Below, piece by piece: positions 29,597 through 34,507 of a stretch of 42,196 bases of DNA; within the stretch, counting starts at the first letter, position 1; the number at the start of each line of letters is the position of its first letter. Below the pieces are notes generated by a model. That model saw only the letters and a list, made by a program, of their open reading frames with translations, was not told where the DNA came from and did no database searches. Location: assembly GCA_016875025.1 (NCBI GenBank), contig VGSH01000013.1, positions 1-42,196 on the forward strand. The letters are read 5' to 3'. A program made the position numbers and the translations under genes. The DNA is from Deltaproteobacteria bacterium. GTDB lineage: Bacteria > Desulfobacterota > WTBG01 > CAIYCZ01 > CAIRTM01.

Positions 29597-31285
29597 CTAT
29601 TGCAGGTAGCTGTCGTAGTCGCCGCGGAAATGTTTCATGGTTGAGGTTACCGGTACCATGGCGGTTTTGCCGAGCGCGCAGGCGCAGGCTTTGGTGATCG
29701 GAGCCGCCATTGCGGTAAAGTGTTTCAGCACGGACTTGTCCGACCGTCCGGCGATGAGTTCGTCGAGCATGTCGCGCACGCGGCACACGCCTTCGCGGCA
29801 GGGAACGCATTTGCCGCAGGATTCGTTGACGAAGAAGTCGGTGAAGTAGCGGGCGAGCTTGACCATGTCGTTGCTGTCGTCCATGATGACCATGCCGCCT
29901 GAGCCCAGCATTGATCCGGCTGCAGCCAGTTCATCATAGTCGATGGTGAGCTTGGCCATCGATGCCGGCAGTACGCCGCCCGAGGGGCCGCCGGGCTGAA
30001 TGCCCTTGAGCTTTTTGCCGCCGGGTATGCCGCCGCCGATGACATCGATGATCTTGCTGATTTTCGTGCCCATGTCGACTTCGATCATGCCGGGTCTGGA
30101 GATATTTCCTGCCAGGGAGAGCACCTTGGTGCCCTTGCTTTTAGCCGATCCGATGGCGCCGTACCATGCTGCGCCCTTTTCGATGATCACCGGGATATTG
30201 GCCCAGGTTTCGACGTTGTTGATGCAGGTCGGCTTGCCGAAAAGGCCGCAGTTGGTGGGGAAGGGCGGGCGCTGGCGCGGTTCGCCGATGTTGCCTTCGA
30301 TGCAGGCGATCAGCGCGGTTTCCTCGCCGCAGACATAGCGGCCGCCGCCTTCCTTGACGATGATGTCCATGCAGAAGCCTGATTTCAGGATGTCGGCTCC
30401 AAGCAGGCCTGCCTCGCGGGCATCGCTGACCGCTTTGGTGATGCGCTGCAGGGCTACCCGGTAATTGTCGCGCACATAGATGTAGGCAGTACGCGCGCCG
30501 ATGGCAAAGCCGCCGATGATCAGGCCTTCGACGACCGCATGCGGGTCGGATTCAAGAAAGCTGCGATGCATGCCGATGCCGGGTTCGCCTTCGCTGACAT
30601 TGCAGATAAGGTATTTTACATCTCCGGCTGCCTCACGGCACATGCGCCATTTGACTCCGGCGGGAAATCCCGCGCCGCCGCGTCCGCGCAGGCCGGATTC
30701 GGTCACTTCCTGCACGATTTTTTCAGGCTTCATGCCGAGCGCTTTGGCAAGCGCGAAGTAGCCGCCGCGCGCGATGTATTCATCGATATTTTCAGGGTCA
30801 ATGGAGCCAGCATTGCGCAGGATGACTTTGTGCTGTGTTTTTGCAAAATCGGTCGCCTCTATTTTCGCAACCGGGTGGCCGGGTGATGCGCCGTCAGTGG
30901 CATAGTCGATGCTTCCGACCAGAATATGGTCTTCGGAGTCCACGCGGGCAACGGCCATATCGGCAAGCACTTCATTTTTTGCAATGGCCTCCAGAAGGCG
31001 GGGCACTTCCTTTTCGGTTATCTTGCCGTAAATGATTTTCGGCTTTCCGGGCTGATGGACTTCAACCACGGGCTCGGCCCAGCACATCCCGTTGCAGCCG
31101 ACTTTCACCAGCTCTGCATTGATGTTGCCGGACTTTATGCCGTAGGCAAGCGCGTTGTAGGTCAGTTCGGCTCCCTTTGCCAGGCAGCAGGTCGATGTGC
31201 CGACATTCACGCGTACCCGGCTGCCGAAAAGGCGCTTATTGCCCTGTTTTTTTGCTTTTAAAAGATCATCTGCACATGTAATCAT
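29597..31285 (-). CDS. NuoF/HndC-type NADH-binding FMN/Fe-S subunit with N-terminal thioredoxin-like ferredoxin domain
   Basis: GLRGRGGAGFPAGVKW, NVSEGEPGIGMHRSFLESDPHAVVEG, GRYVCGEETALIACIEG, ESCGKCVPCREG; N-terminal GTSTCCLAKGA...VGCNGMCWAEPVVEV. Confidence 0.95.
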   Translation of the reverse strand: MITCADDLLKAKKQGNKRLFGSRVRVNVGTSTCCLAKGAELTYNALAYGIKSGNINAELVKVGCNGMCWAEPVVEVHQPGKPKIIYGKITEKEVPRLLEAIAKNEVLADMAVARVDSEDHILVGSIDYATDGASPGHPVAKIEATDFAKTQHKVILRNAGSIDPENIDEYIARGGYFALAKALGMKPEKIVQEVTESGLRGRGGAGFPAGVKWRMCREAAGDVKYLICNVSEGEPGIGMHRSFLESDPHAVVEGLIIGGFAIGARTAYIYVRDNYRVALQRITKAVSDAREAGLLGADILKSGFCMDIIVKEGGGRYVCGEETALIACIEGNIGEPRQRPPFPTNCGLFGKPTCINNVETWANIPVIIEKGAAWYGAIGSAKSKGTKVLSLAGNISRPGMIEVDMGTKISKIIDVIGGGIPGGKKLKGIQPGGPSGGVLPASMAKLTIDYDELAAAGSMLGSGGMVIMDDSNDMVKLARYFTDFFVNESCGKCVPCREGVCRVRDMLDELIAGRSDKSVLKHFTAMAAPITKACACALGKTAMVPVTSTMKHFRGDYDSYLQ

Positions 31286-31318: not shown

Positions 31319-32221
31319 TTATGCAAGGGTTATGGATTCGATTTTAGCCTGCGCCTCTGCGCCTTTGTAAACCTTGCCGTCGATCTCAACAACGGGAGCG
31401 CAGTCACAGCAGCCAAGGCACAGGGTTTTTTCGATTGAAACGCCCGGGCTGGCAGCAATTTTTGTTTCGATCTCCCGGCCGACGCCTGCGGTGTCGTGGA
31501 TATGGCAGGCGGTACCGCAGCAAAGCTTGACATGGTGAGCGCCCGTGCGTTCAAGGCGGAAGGCTTTATAGAAGCTCGCCACGCTGTAAATGGCGCTGAC
31601 CGGGATGCCGGTTTTGTCGCTGATCGCAAGCATGGCCTCGCGGGGCAGGTATCCGATTTCATCCTGGGCCGCATGCATGATAAACATCAGCTTGTCGCGG
31701 GAGGTGCCGAAGCGCTTGACAATTTCGCCGATAATGGCGGGATCGAAGTCGCCGAGAGTTTTGAATTTTTTAAGGATGCTGCTTTTAAAGGGCTCGGGCA
31801 CGATTTCATTGACTACGGCATTGACGTGATCTTCGGTCACCGCGCCGCTCTGGGTCTTTTGCGCGATAACCGCGCTCAGCTTGCCGCGAAAGATCGCGCG
31901 CATGCCTTCGGGGACCTCACCCAGCATCAGCTCGAACATGATCTCGCTTTTGCCGGTCCACTCAAGCGAGGGACCTTCCTGTGCGGGCTGCGAAGGCGCC
32001 TGCATGCCGATAGCCTGCATGAGCGCGCTTTTCTGCGGTTCGGGCAGGTCTTCCTGAACCATGGTTTTGATTATAGCTTCATCAATTGCGACGGACCCTG
32101 CCCGCTGTGCGAGCATCTGGATCAGTTTCGGCTTGATTGTCTCGCGCATTGCTTCAGGAACCGCAGCGAGAAGCTTTCCAAAAAGTTTTTCACCTTCCGG
32201 CGACCAGGTTACCTCTGCCAT
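31319..32221 (-). CDS. NuoE-like [2Fe-2S] subunit with two N-terminal PCP_red-like repeats
   Basis: C-terminal domain HAAQDEIGYLPREAMLAISDKTGIPVSAIYSVASFYKAF...KLCCGTACHI...KTLCLGCCDCAPVVEIDGKVY. N-terminal repeats VTWSPEGEKLFGKLLAAVPEAMRETIKPKLIQMLAQ and LEWTGKSEIMFELMLGEVPEGMRAIFRGKLSAVIAQ. Confidence 0.9.
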   Translation of the reverse strand: MAEVTWSPEGEKLFGKLLAAVPEAMRETIKPKLIQMLAQRAGSVAIDEAIIKTMVQEDLPEPQKSALMQAIGMQAPSQPAQEGPSLEWTGKSEIMFELMLGEVPEGMRAIFRGKLSAVIAQKTQSGAVTEDHVNAVVNEIVPEPFKSSILKKFKTLGDFDPAIIGEIVKRFGTSRDKLMFIMHAAQDEIGYLPREAMLAISDKTGIPVSAIYSVASFYKAFRLERTGAHHVKLCCGTACHIHDTAGVGREIETKIAASPGVSIEKTLCLGCCDCAPVVEIDGKVYKGAEAQAKIESITLA

Positions 32222-32298
32222 TCCATTCTCCCTTGTTATGCTCTGTGCATTCAAACGCACATTGTTGTATGTATACGGGCCCGGCACAGGTGCCGGGG

Positions 32299-33012
32299 TT
32301 AATTCATCTCGTGCGCAGCGCTGTTGTGCAGCTGAGCATACAGTCTGTCGGTCTGCTCCTGCAGCGTCGCAATCTGAGCTTTTTTCCAGGAAGCAAAACG
32401 GGCCTGGCGACCGATGTAGTCGGCAACCGTGCGCGGCCGCATGTCCTCAACCGTGATGTTGTAATGGCCCTCGGCAATTTCATACAGAGGGAAGACGCGC
32501 GCTTCAACTGCCATGCGTGCAATTCTGACCGTGTTTTCCATCTCAAAACCCCAGGACATGGGGCAGGGGCACAGGATGTGGATATAGGCAGATCCGGCAA
32601 TGCTCCAGCCGCGCCGGATTTTTTCGATAAGGTCAAACGGGTGGCTCGGGCTGGCGGTTGCAGCATACAGGCAGCCGCTTGCAGCAGCCTTTGCGGGACT
32701 TTTTTTGATAAGCTGATCAGGTATGGTTTTCTTGCCGACGGCCTCGGCGTCAAAACAGATGTACAGGCGGTTTTCGCCGGCCTTCGGGATGATCAGAACG
32801 GGTGCGCCGGGTGTTTCACTGGCTGCGAATATGCCGGTGGGGGTCTCGTCCCAGCGCGCCTGCGCAAGATCGGTGCTTTTATCTTCAAGCGCCTTGTAGA
32901 CATGGCGCAGGGCCAGCGCAGTGCCGCTGCCGGCACAGGCATTGTGCCCGCCCGGAAGATAGCGTTCATTAAAGGGCAGGAACTGGCCTGCAAAAAGAGT
33001 ATATGTATCCAT
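32299..33012 (-). CDS. PorB-like (2-oxoacid:ferredoxin oxidoreductase beta) protein, apparently lacking the TPP-binding core
   Basis: N-terminal ERYLPGGHNACAGSGTALALRHVYKALED and C-terminal ATASPSHPFDLIEKI...SAYIHILCPCPMSWGFEMENTVRIARMAVEARVFPLYEIAEGHYNITV...VADYIGRQARF are PorB-like; no GDG TPP motif between them. Confidence 0.85.
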   Translation of the reverse strand: MDTYTLFAGQFLPFNERYLPGGHNACAGSGTALALRHVYKALEDKSTDLAQARWDETPTGIFAASETPGAPVLIIPKAGENRLYICFDAEAVGKKTIPDQLIKKSPAKAAASGCLYAATASPSHPFDLIEKIRRGWSIAGSAYIHILCPCPMSWGFEMENTVRIARMAVEARVFPLYEIAEGHYNITVEDMRPRTVADYIGRQARFASWKKAQIATLQEQTDRLYAQLHNSAAHEMN

Positions 33013-33299
33013 TATTCCACCTCCTGCATGCTGATGGCGCCGAACCAGCATTCCCTGTGACAGATGCCGCAGCTTTTGCACAGATCCTGATCCGCATCAA
33101 AATAACCGTCTGCCTGCCTGCTGATCGCCGCGTCCGGACAGTAGAGATAGCACAGCGCGCAACGGGCACATACCAGTTTGTCCCAGACCGGTTTGAGAGG
33201 CTTTTCAACGGCAGAAAAGGACTCAACCTTTCCGTCTTTTATGAGCTGATCCAGCAATTTGGAAACAGCAGTCATTTGTTTTGAACTTTTGGTTGCCAA
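33012..33299 (-). CDS. PorD-like 2x[4Fe-4S] ferredoxin
   Basis: LVCARCALCYLYCPDAAI and DLCKSCGICHRECWFGAI. TAATG junction with the PorB-like gene. Confidence 0.92.
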   Translation of the reverse strand: MATKSSKQMTAVSKLLDQLIKDGKVESFSAVEKPLKPVWDKLVCARCALCYLYCPDAAISRQADGYFDADQDLCKSCGICHRECWFGAISMQEVE

Positions 33300-33574
33300 C
33301 GTTTGGTCTCCTGTATAAAAAGGTTACACACACGTGATGCAGCAGGGATCAATCAGCATCTATTTTTAAAGCCAAAACAGTAGCGGTATCTGTCGAAATT
33401 GTCAAGATTTTATTTGCCGCACACACGGCCGGATGCAGCAGGGCTCGGGCGCGGCTGCCTTCATCCGACATTGTAAAATTAAAGGTTATCTGCTATGGTT
33501 CCCAGGCGGAAACCGGACAACAGCGTATGCGTTGCGCGGGTGAAGCGAAATCGGACCGCAAAGGGGATGAGAGT

Positions 33575-34507
33575 ATGAAAATCGTTATTGTCGGCGCCGG
33601 GGCCATGGGATGCCTGTTCGCGGCCCTGCTGCGCCGCGCCGGTCTGGAGCCCCTGCTGCTTGAGAAAAGCCCCTCGACGGTCGCGGCCATCGGCTGCGGG
33701 GGGCTTGTGCTTGAAGACCTCACGGGCACTCATGCTGTTGACCGGATTGCCATAACAGGGGATGCGGCCGGGATCGGGCCTGCCGACTATGTTGTTTTTT
33801 TTGTAAAAGCCTTTGATACAGCGTCTGCCGCCGGATTCGCGGCAGCCTGTATCGGGCCTGCAACCGTTGTAGTTACACTGCAAAACGGGATCGGCAACGC
33901 CGATGTTTTATCTGAACGTTTCCCCGGCAGCAACGTGCTGGCCGGTATAACCGCACACGGCGCAACCCTGCTCGGCCCCGGCCATGTGCGGCATGCCGGC
34001 TGTGGTGAAACCGCGTTCGGCCCGCTGCACCCGTCCGGAAGGCGCAGCGCCGAAGTGCTCTGTGATGTATTCAATGCTTCCGGCATTGCCGCGCGCATTG
34101 ATGATGATGTGCATGCGTTGCTGTGGGGCAAGCTTTGCGTTAATATCGGCATCAATGCGCTGGCAGCGATTCTGGACATCAGTAACGGACGGATTCTTGA
34201 AATGGACCCTGTGCGCGATATCATGCGCAACGCGGTTCGCGAGGCGGTTGCGGTTGCCGTCGCCCAGGGACTCGAGTTTGACGCCGATGAGCAGGTCGCG
34301 CGTGTCGAGCAGGTGTGCCGGGCCACGCAGTCAAACATCTGTTCGATGCTGCAGGATGTGCGTGCCGGGCGCATGACCGAAATCGAGTATATCAACGGTG
34401 CTGTCGTCCGTGCAGGCCGCTCCCTGCACTGCCCCGTTCCGGTCAACGCCATGCTGGCTGATCTTGTGCGGGCCCGACAGATGCTTGCTGCCGGGAAATC
34501 CGCGTGA
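33575..34507 (+). CDS. 2-dehydropantoate 2-reductase (PanE/ApbA family)
   Basis: MKIVIVGAGAMGCLFAALLRRAG, VFFVKAFDTASA, VTLQNGIGNADVL, WGKLCVNIGINALAAI. Confidence 0.9.
   Translation: MKIVIVGAGAMGCLFAALLRRAGLEPLLLEKSPSTVAAIGCGGLVLEDLTGTHAVDRIAITGDAAGIGPADYVVFFVKAFDTASAAGFAAACIGPATVVVTLQNGIGNADVLSERFPGSNVLAGITAHGATLLGPGHVRHAGCGETAFGPLHPSGRRSAEVLCDVFNASGIAARIDDDVHALLWGKLCVNIGINALAAILDISNGRILEMDPVRDIMRNAVREAVAVAVAQGLEFDADEQVARVEQVCRATQSNICSMLQDVRAGRMTEIEYINGAVVRAGRSLHCPVPVNAMLADLVRARQMLAAGKSA

Follow-up and report, generated by a model that had tools for sequence, protein, structure and literature searches.

A TPP-less PorB homologue encoded with PorD-, NuoE- and NuoF-like proteins in an uncultured class of Desulfobacterota: a putative non-catalytic electron-transfer subunit

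Introduction

PorB-type subunits of 2-oxoacid oxidoreductases combine a TPP site with an iron-sulfur cluster, TPP sitting between PorA and PorB. In a structurally solved relative, Mg2+ at TPP is bound by a GDG motif plus an Asn 27 residues downstream, and the proximal cluster is held by a CxGC loop which faces the ferredoxin (PMC5020499). Full-length, GDG-bearing relatives adjoin PorA, and many of them lie in PorC-PorD-PorA-PorB-NuoE-NuoF-NuoG operons of Desulfobacterota, Chloroflexota and other bacteria. A characterised archaeal geranylgeranyl reductase requires a ferredoxin from its own locus (PMC10821996).

The window, i.e. the whole 42,196-nt stretch of DNA analysed here, encodes a much shorter protein of this kind, which we call mini-PorB. 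A preliminary description of the window considered it a PorB homologue that has lost its TPP-binding segment and part of its Fe-S ligands. In this study, we show that mini-PorB has been conserved by purifying selection. Its homology to PorB, in sequence and in predicted fold, is beyond chance.

Results

The window operon

The window operon comprises four genes, none of them NuoG-like or FixC-like (Table 1). The PorD and mini-PorB genes share a single nucleotide, in which the stop codon of the former meets the start of the latter. PorD scores above the TIGR02179 cut-off and carries two CxxCxxCxxxC motifs (8/8 Cys); all eight cluster cysteines are kept in every aligned copy. The NuoF-like protein matches PF01512 (FMN/NADH domain, 1.8e-43) and PF10589 (2.8e-24), and its four C-terminal [4Fe-4S] cysteines are conserved. 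The N-terminal repeats of the NuoE-like protein measure about 65 aa each and are poorly covered by Pfam, their sole match being a weak one to DUF2621. Near the PorD gene lies a PanE/ketopantoate-reductase-like gene (33527-34507, +), and several other loci, from different genera of the family, have such a gene beside or near PorD, mostly divergently oriented (L024, L029, L030, L034, L038, L042, L052).

Table 1. Positions of mini-PorB, its sequence landmarks and the neighbouring operon genes in the window
Feature	Position	Strand	Details and basis
mini-PorB, TPP-less homologue of PorB / oxalate oxidoreductase beta	32299..33012	-	237 aa plus stop
CAGS loop, residues 26-29; cluster-binding CxGC loop with second Cys replaced by Ser	32926..32937	-	alignment; loop role PMC5020499
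Shortened region, residues 42-84; site of third cluster Cys and GDG Mg2+/TPP motif in full-length PorB	32761..32889	-	alignment
CFDAE, residues 86-90; corresponds to C(F/Y)DNE as a remnant, Mg2+-ligand Asn replaced by Ala, downstream TPP lid deleted	32743..32757	-	alignment
CPCP, residues 148-151; C150 is the fourth cluster Cys, retained	32560..32571	-	alignment
PorD-like 2x[4Fe-4S] ferredoxin subunit, all eight Cys	33012..33299	-	domain/profile match, alignment
NuoE/HoxE-like [2Fe-2S] subunit, two N-terminal repeats, four [2Fe-2S] Cys present	31319..32287	-	domain/profile match, alignment
NuoF-like NADH/FMN/[4Fe-4S] subunit	29597..31285	-	domain/profile match, alignment

Homology and predicted fold

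The PorB-like peptides quoted in the preliminary description are all present, with KALED at residue 40, LYICFDAEAVGKK at residue 83 and the others at residues 16, 118 and 150. The NCBIfam PorB model NF008819 matches mini-PorB with an E value of 4e-36 (best stretch residues 93-229); at 124.7 bits, the score lies far under the 405 bits required of a true PorB. A sequence search of the PDB retrieved oxalate oxidoreductase beta (E 7e-27) and PFOR beta (9bt4, 7e-21), the alignment covering mainly the C-terminal half, while a Pfam search of mini-PorB gave no match even at E 1. An AlphaFold2 model of the window protein (pLDDT 84.4, pTM 0.85; residues 1-13 and 20-23 below 50) found its only strong Foldseek matches in oxalate oxidoreductase beta and PFOR domain VI (E 1e-10). 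A second model (pLDDT 83, residues 1-23 of low confidence), made from a mini-PorB with a complete CxGC motif, agreed with the first in the order of its strands and helices. The retained part thus has a predicted PorB-type fold.

Loss of the TPP site

Thirty distinct mini-PorB sequences were collected, all sharing the same deletions. There are three of these as compared to full-length relatives, in the numbering of the full-length PorB from locus L051: 45-57, including the third cluster Cys, 97-130, including GDG, and 144-166, the TPP lid. The lid (NTG..TP.GA.TTSPSG) directly follows the position of FDAEA. The initial reading of a single shortening from KALED onward was correct in that this region is shortened and GDG-less, but it left the lid uncounted. 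GDG is absent from the window protein and the GDG columns are empty in 30/30 aligned mini-PorBs; the letters GDG do occur inside four of them, at non-homologous positions, and are not the motif. The Asn of the YDNE motif, judged by spacing to be the Mg2+ ligand Asn118 beta of the solved relative (PMC5020499), is Ala in the window, as the comparison of FDAEA with YDNE had indicated, but is still Asn in 22/30 mini-PorBs. Since GDG and Asn bind Mg2+ at TPP in the solved relative, the missing segments represent the cofactor site. Every TPP/Mg2+-contacting segment is missing in 30/30 sequences, which supports the earlier proposal that the protein would be unable to bind TPP. The CxGC loop and the PCP-W region have been kept, as has a remnant of the DNE motif.

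Cluster cysteines

The expected loss of part of the Fe-S ligands was borne out. Among the four cysteines of the proximal [4Fe-4S] cluster of PorB, C26 and C150 are invariant (30/30) and the third is lost family-wide (30/30); in the window the second is gone as well. The change to CAGSG, previously pointed out, is real but specific to the genus: CxGC is complete, with C29 kept, in 28/30 mini-PorBs, and Ser is limited to the window and its congener. A Cys at position 148 is found in 24/30 mini-PorBs versus 1/51 full-length PorBs. A cluster with a replaced ligand is possible in mini-PorB, and we infer that Cys148 may substitute for the lost one. Cluster ligands have been lost from NuoE and from the N-terminal [2Fe-2S] domain of NuoF in the sister operons L023, L025 and L041 (genomes G000, G001 and G005), the rest of the operon being kept. 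Because of this ligand loss in a sister lineage and of the Ser in the window-genus loop, parts of the proposed electron wire may have become an electron-dead scaffold.

Distribution and selection

Mini-PorB is present in 14 of the 17 genomes of the window genome's own small class of Desulfobacterota; when 298 genomes of the phylum were sampled, it was confined to members of that class. The named records are MAGs of Desulfobacterota/Thermodesulfobacteriota type plus one labelled Myxococcota (L088). This last MAG (JALOQD010000017.1) carries a whole six-gene sister operon, by gene transfer or by mis-binning. In a tree on 194 shared columns, a branch with 100/99 support sets the mini-PorBs apart from the other sequences. 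The MAG LaPlata bin-1461 encodes a mini-PorB of 87% identity. Comparison with the congener of the window genome, an independent MAG, by a Nei-Gojobori script gave a dN/dS of 0.070/0.476 = 0.15, close to the values of about 0.10-0.11 for PorD, NuoE and NuoF.

Operon context and a second, longer TPP-less form

The order PorD - mini-PorB - NuoE - NuoF is constant wherever the contig extends far enough, and in 27/27 cases the PorD stop lies between 1 nt overlapping and 4 nt ahead of the mini-PorB start. PorA and PorC are both missing from the mini-PorB operons. Considering all loci read and both TPP-less forms, PorA is adjacent to 58/59 GDG-bearing PorBs versus 0/28 GDG-less ones. The window genome holds a second mini-PorB copy (G000:C15, L023), whose operon extends into genes for a NuoG/HoxU-like ferredoxin as well as a FixC/geranylgeranyl-reductase-like flavoprotein.

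The same genomes encode ten more PorB homologues, close to the usual length at about 275-313 aa, in which GDG is replaced (L148 on G004:C130, L149, L150, L151, L164, L166, L168, L171, L173 and L174). Their operons read PorD - PorB* - NuoE - NuoF, PorB* being the longer form, without PorA; if the contig is long enough, they also include NuoG- and FixC-like genes. A single origin of all TPP-less forms is possible, since together they occupy one side of a 100/96 branch; the long row of L148 lowers certainty.

FixC-like flavoproteins

With the L023 flavoprotein as query, 8-18 copies of the FixC-like family (E up to 1e-20) were found in each of the 14/14 mini-PorB genomes; 45 relatives lacking mini-PorB, three of them from the same class, gave no match. 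As this co-occurrence lies within a single lineage, it represents few independent events. The expansion covers genomes G000-G010 and G012-G014. A FixC-like gene is nearby in 13/22 GDG-less loci, as compared to 0/28 GDG-bearing ones. The sister-operon flavoprotein is a weak member of the FixC/geranylgeranyl reductase superfamily (TIGR02032, under the family cut-off). Some copies lie in tandem arrays with MarR-type regulators (L148, L156). One copy (L153) lies among genes for a thiolase, an amidohydrolase and a cysteine-rich CCG-domain Fe-S protein, which suggests a catabolic use of FixC-like proteins. Directly after another FixC-like gene, a member of the ferredoxin-dependent bilin reductase family is encoded (L157 5461-6246, G000:C20; PF05996, E 7.6e-16).

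Discussion

We propose that mini-PorB is probably a non-catalytic, TPP-free electron-transfer and docking subunit derived from PorB. Recycling into a non-catalytic electron-transfer part is most likely because the TPP site is lost, yet the gene is kept in an operon that also encodes a ferredoxin plus an NADH-oxidising module. The ancestor would have been an NAD-linked 2-oxoacid oxidoreductase of the order PorC-PorD-PorA-PorB-NuoE-NuoF-NuoG, from which PorA, PorC and the TPP pocket were presumably lost, with the path from NuoF (FMN) via NuoE and PorD to the cluster region of PorB retained. NADH would thereby exchange electrons with the cluster region kept in mini-PorB, and the end of the path formerly fed by the TPP intermediate would now face a different redox partner. 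For the longer sister operons this is most likely the FixC/geranylgeranyl-reductase-like flavoprotein encoded beside NuoG; for the four-gene operon of the window it is perhaps one of eight FixC-like proteins from elsewhere in the genome. Electrons may run either from NADH to the flavoprotein or from the flavoprotein to NAD+. More tentatively, at slightly below even confidence, TPP-free PorB derivatives, short and longer, may be lineage-specific hubs linking NuoEF(G) and PorD to expanded FixC-like flavoenzymes; a 2-oxoacid oxidoreductase would then have been converted to a general NADH:flavoprotein electron-transfer complex.

Missing motifs, plus one further Cys lost in the window genus, could be taken for a decaying pseudogene or an assembly artefact, but this is extremely improbable: the gene is intact in 14 genomes from independent MAGs, LaPlata bin-1461 included, and the deletions are shared within a monophyletic group. 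Conservation in these genomes and a dN/dS of about 0.15 exclude decay and misassembly, in line with the earlier preference for a neofunctionalised or structural subunit over simple decay. A local deletion is likewise ruled out, because all mini-PorB orthologues share the deletions, and a search for a GDG-bearing orthologue in the PorD-mini-PorB-NuoE-NuoF context found none. The loss of ligands would fit a purely structural adaptor, in which a clusterless mini-PorB would hold PorD against NuoEF or shape a regulatory complex. The third cluster Cys is gone in every member, the second in the window genus, and in some sister operons ligands are also missing from NuoE and from the NuoF N-terminal domain. 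We nevertheless consider such an adaptor rather unlikely, as the persistence of C26, C150 and, nearly throughout, C29, with a new Cys148 that is almost confined to mini-PorBs, is easier explained by a bound cluster.

Mini-PorB could also pair with PorA and PorC from elsewhere and keep 2-oxoacid chemistry. POR_N and POR domains indeed occur at five further sites of the window genome (C31, C46, C33, C157 and C62), one of which, C157, encodes a 589-aa fused gamma-alpha protein with no beta subunit visible before the contig ends soon after. However, the single 1189-aa chain of C31 includes a GDG, C33 and C46 both encode a beta subunit of their own, separate and with GDG, and C62 resembles an indolepyruvate-type oxidoreductase pair (610 + 239 aa) for which PorB is not required. 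No POR alpha subunit in the window genome visibly needs mini-PorB. With the TPP/Mg2+ residues all missing and PorA adjacent to none of the 28 TPP-less forms, trans-complementation is very unlikely, and the sequences argue strongly against NAD+-dependent 2-oxoacid oxidation by a mini-PorB complex.

The putative electron-transfer subunit would illustrate how a modular redox enzyme can lose its catalytic half and retain its electron-transfer half, the same genomes containing both a longer version that is TPP-dead and the shortened endpoint. Moreover, PorB homologues in metagenomes are no proof of pyruvate oxidation.

Comparison with known systems

A literature search of incomplete coverage found no description of the mini-PorB system; publications on anaerobic benzene flavoproteins and on deep-sea Chloroflexi had no bearing on mini-PorB. 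The modules are known; their combination points to a putative NADH-linked flavoprotein system of an uncultured class that has apparently not been described. With PorB/PFOR domain VI and oxalate oxidoreductase beta (PDB 5c4i, 5exd, 9bt4), mini-PorB shares the C-terminal half (27-40% identity in the top structural matches), the PCP-W cluster Cys, the CxGC loop and the fold of the retained part; it differs in being about 75 residues shorter and in lacking GDG, the TPP lid, the third cluster Cys and a PorA/PorC partner. The NAD-linked PorC-D-A-B-NuoE-NuoF-NuoG operons (L051, L097, L110, L134), among the nearest full-length PorB relatives, likewise bring together PorD, PorB and NuoEF(G), but have retained both PorA and PorC, and their TPP site is intact; the NADH-dependent phenylglyoxylate dehydrogenase is likened to them by name only. 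NuoE- and NuoF-like subunits, and in sister operons a NuoG/HoxU-like one, are shared with the NuoEFG/HoxEFU diaphorase modules, which are joined to complex I or hydrogenase, whereas here NuoEF is joined to PorD and a TPP-less PorB. The flavoprotein neighbour in the sister operons belongs to the same superfamily as FixC and the geranylgeranyl reductases, but is tied to an NADH-oxidising module.
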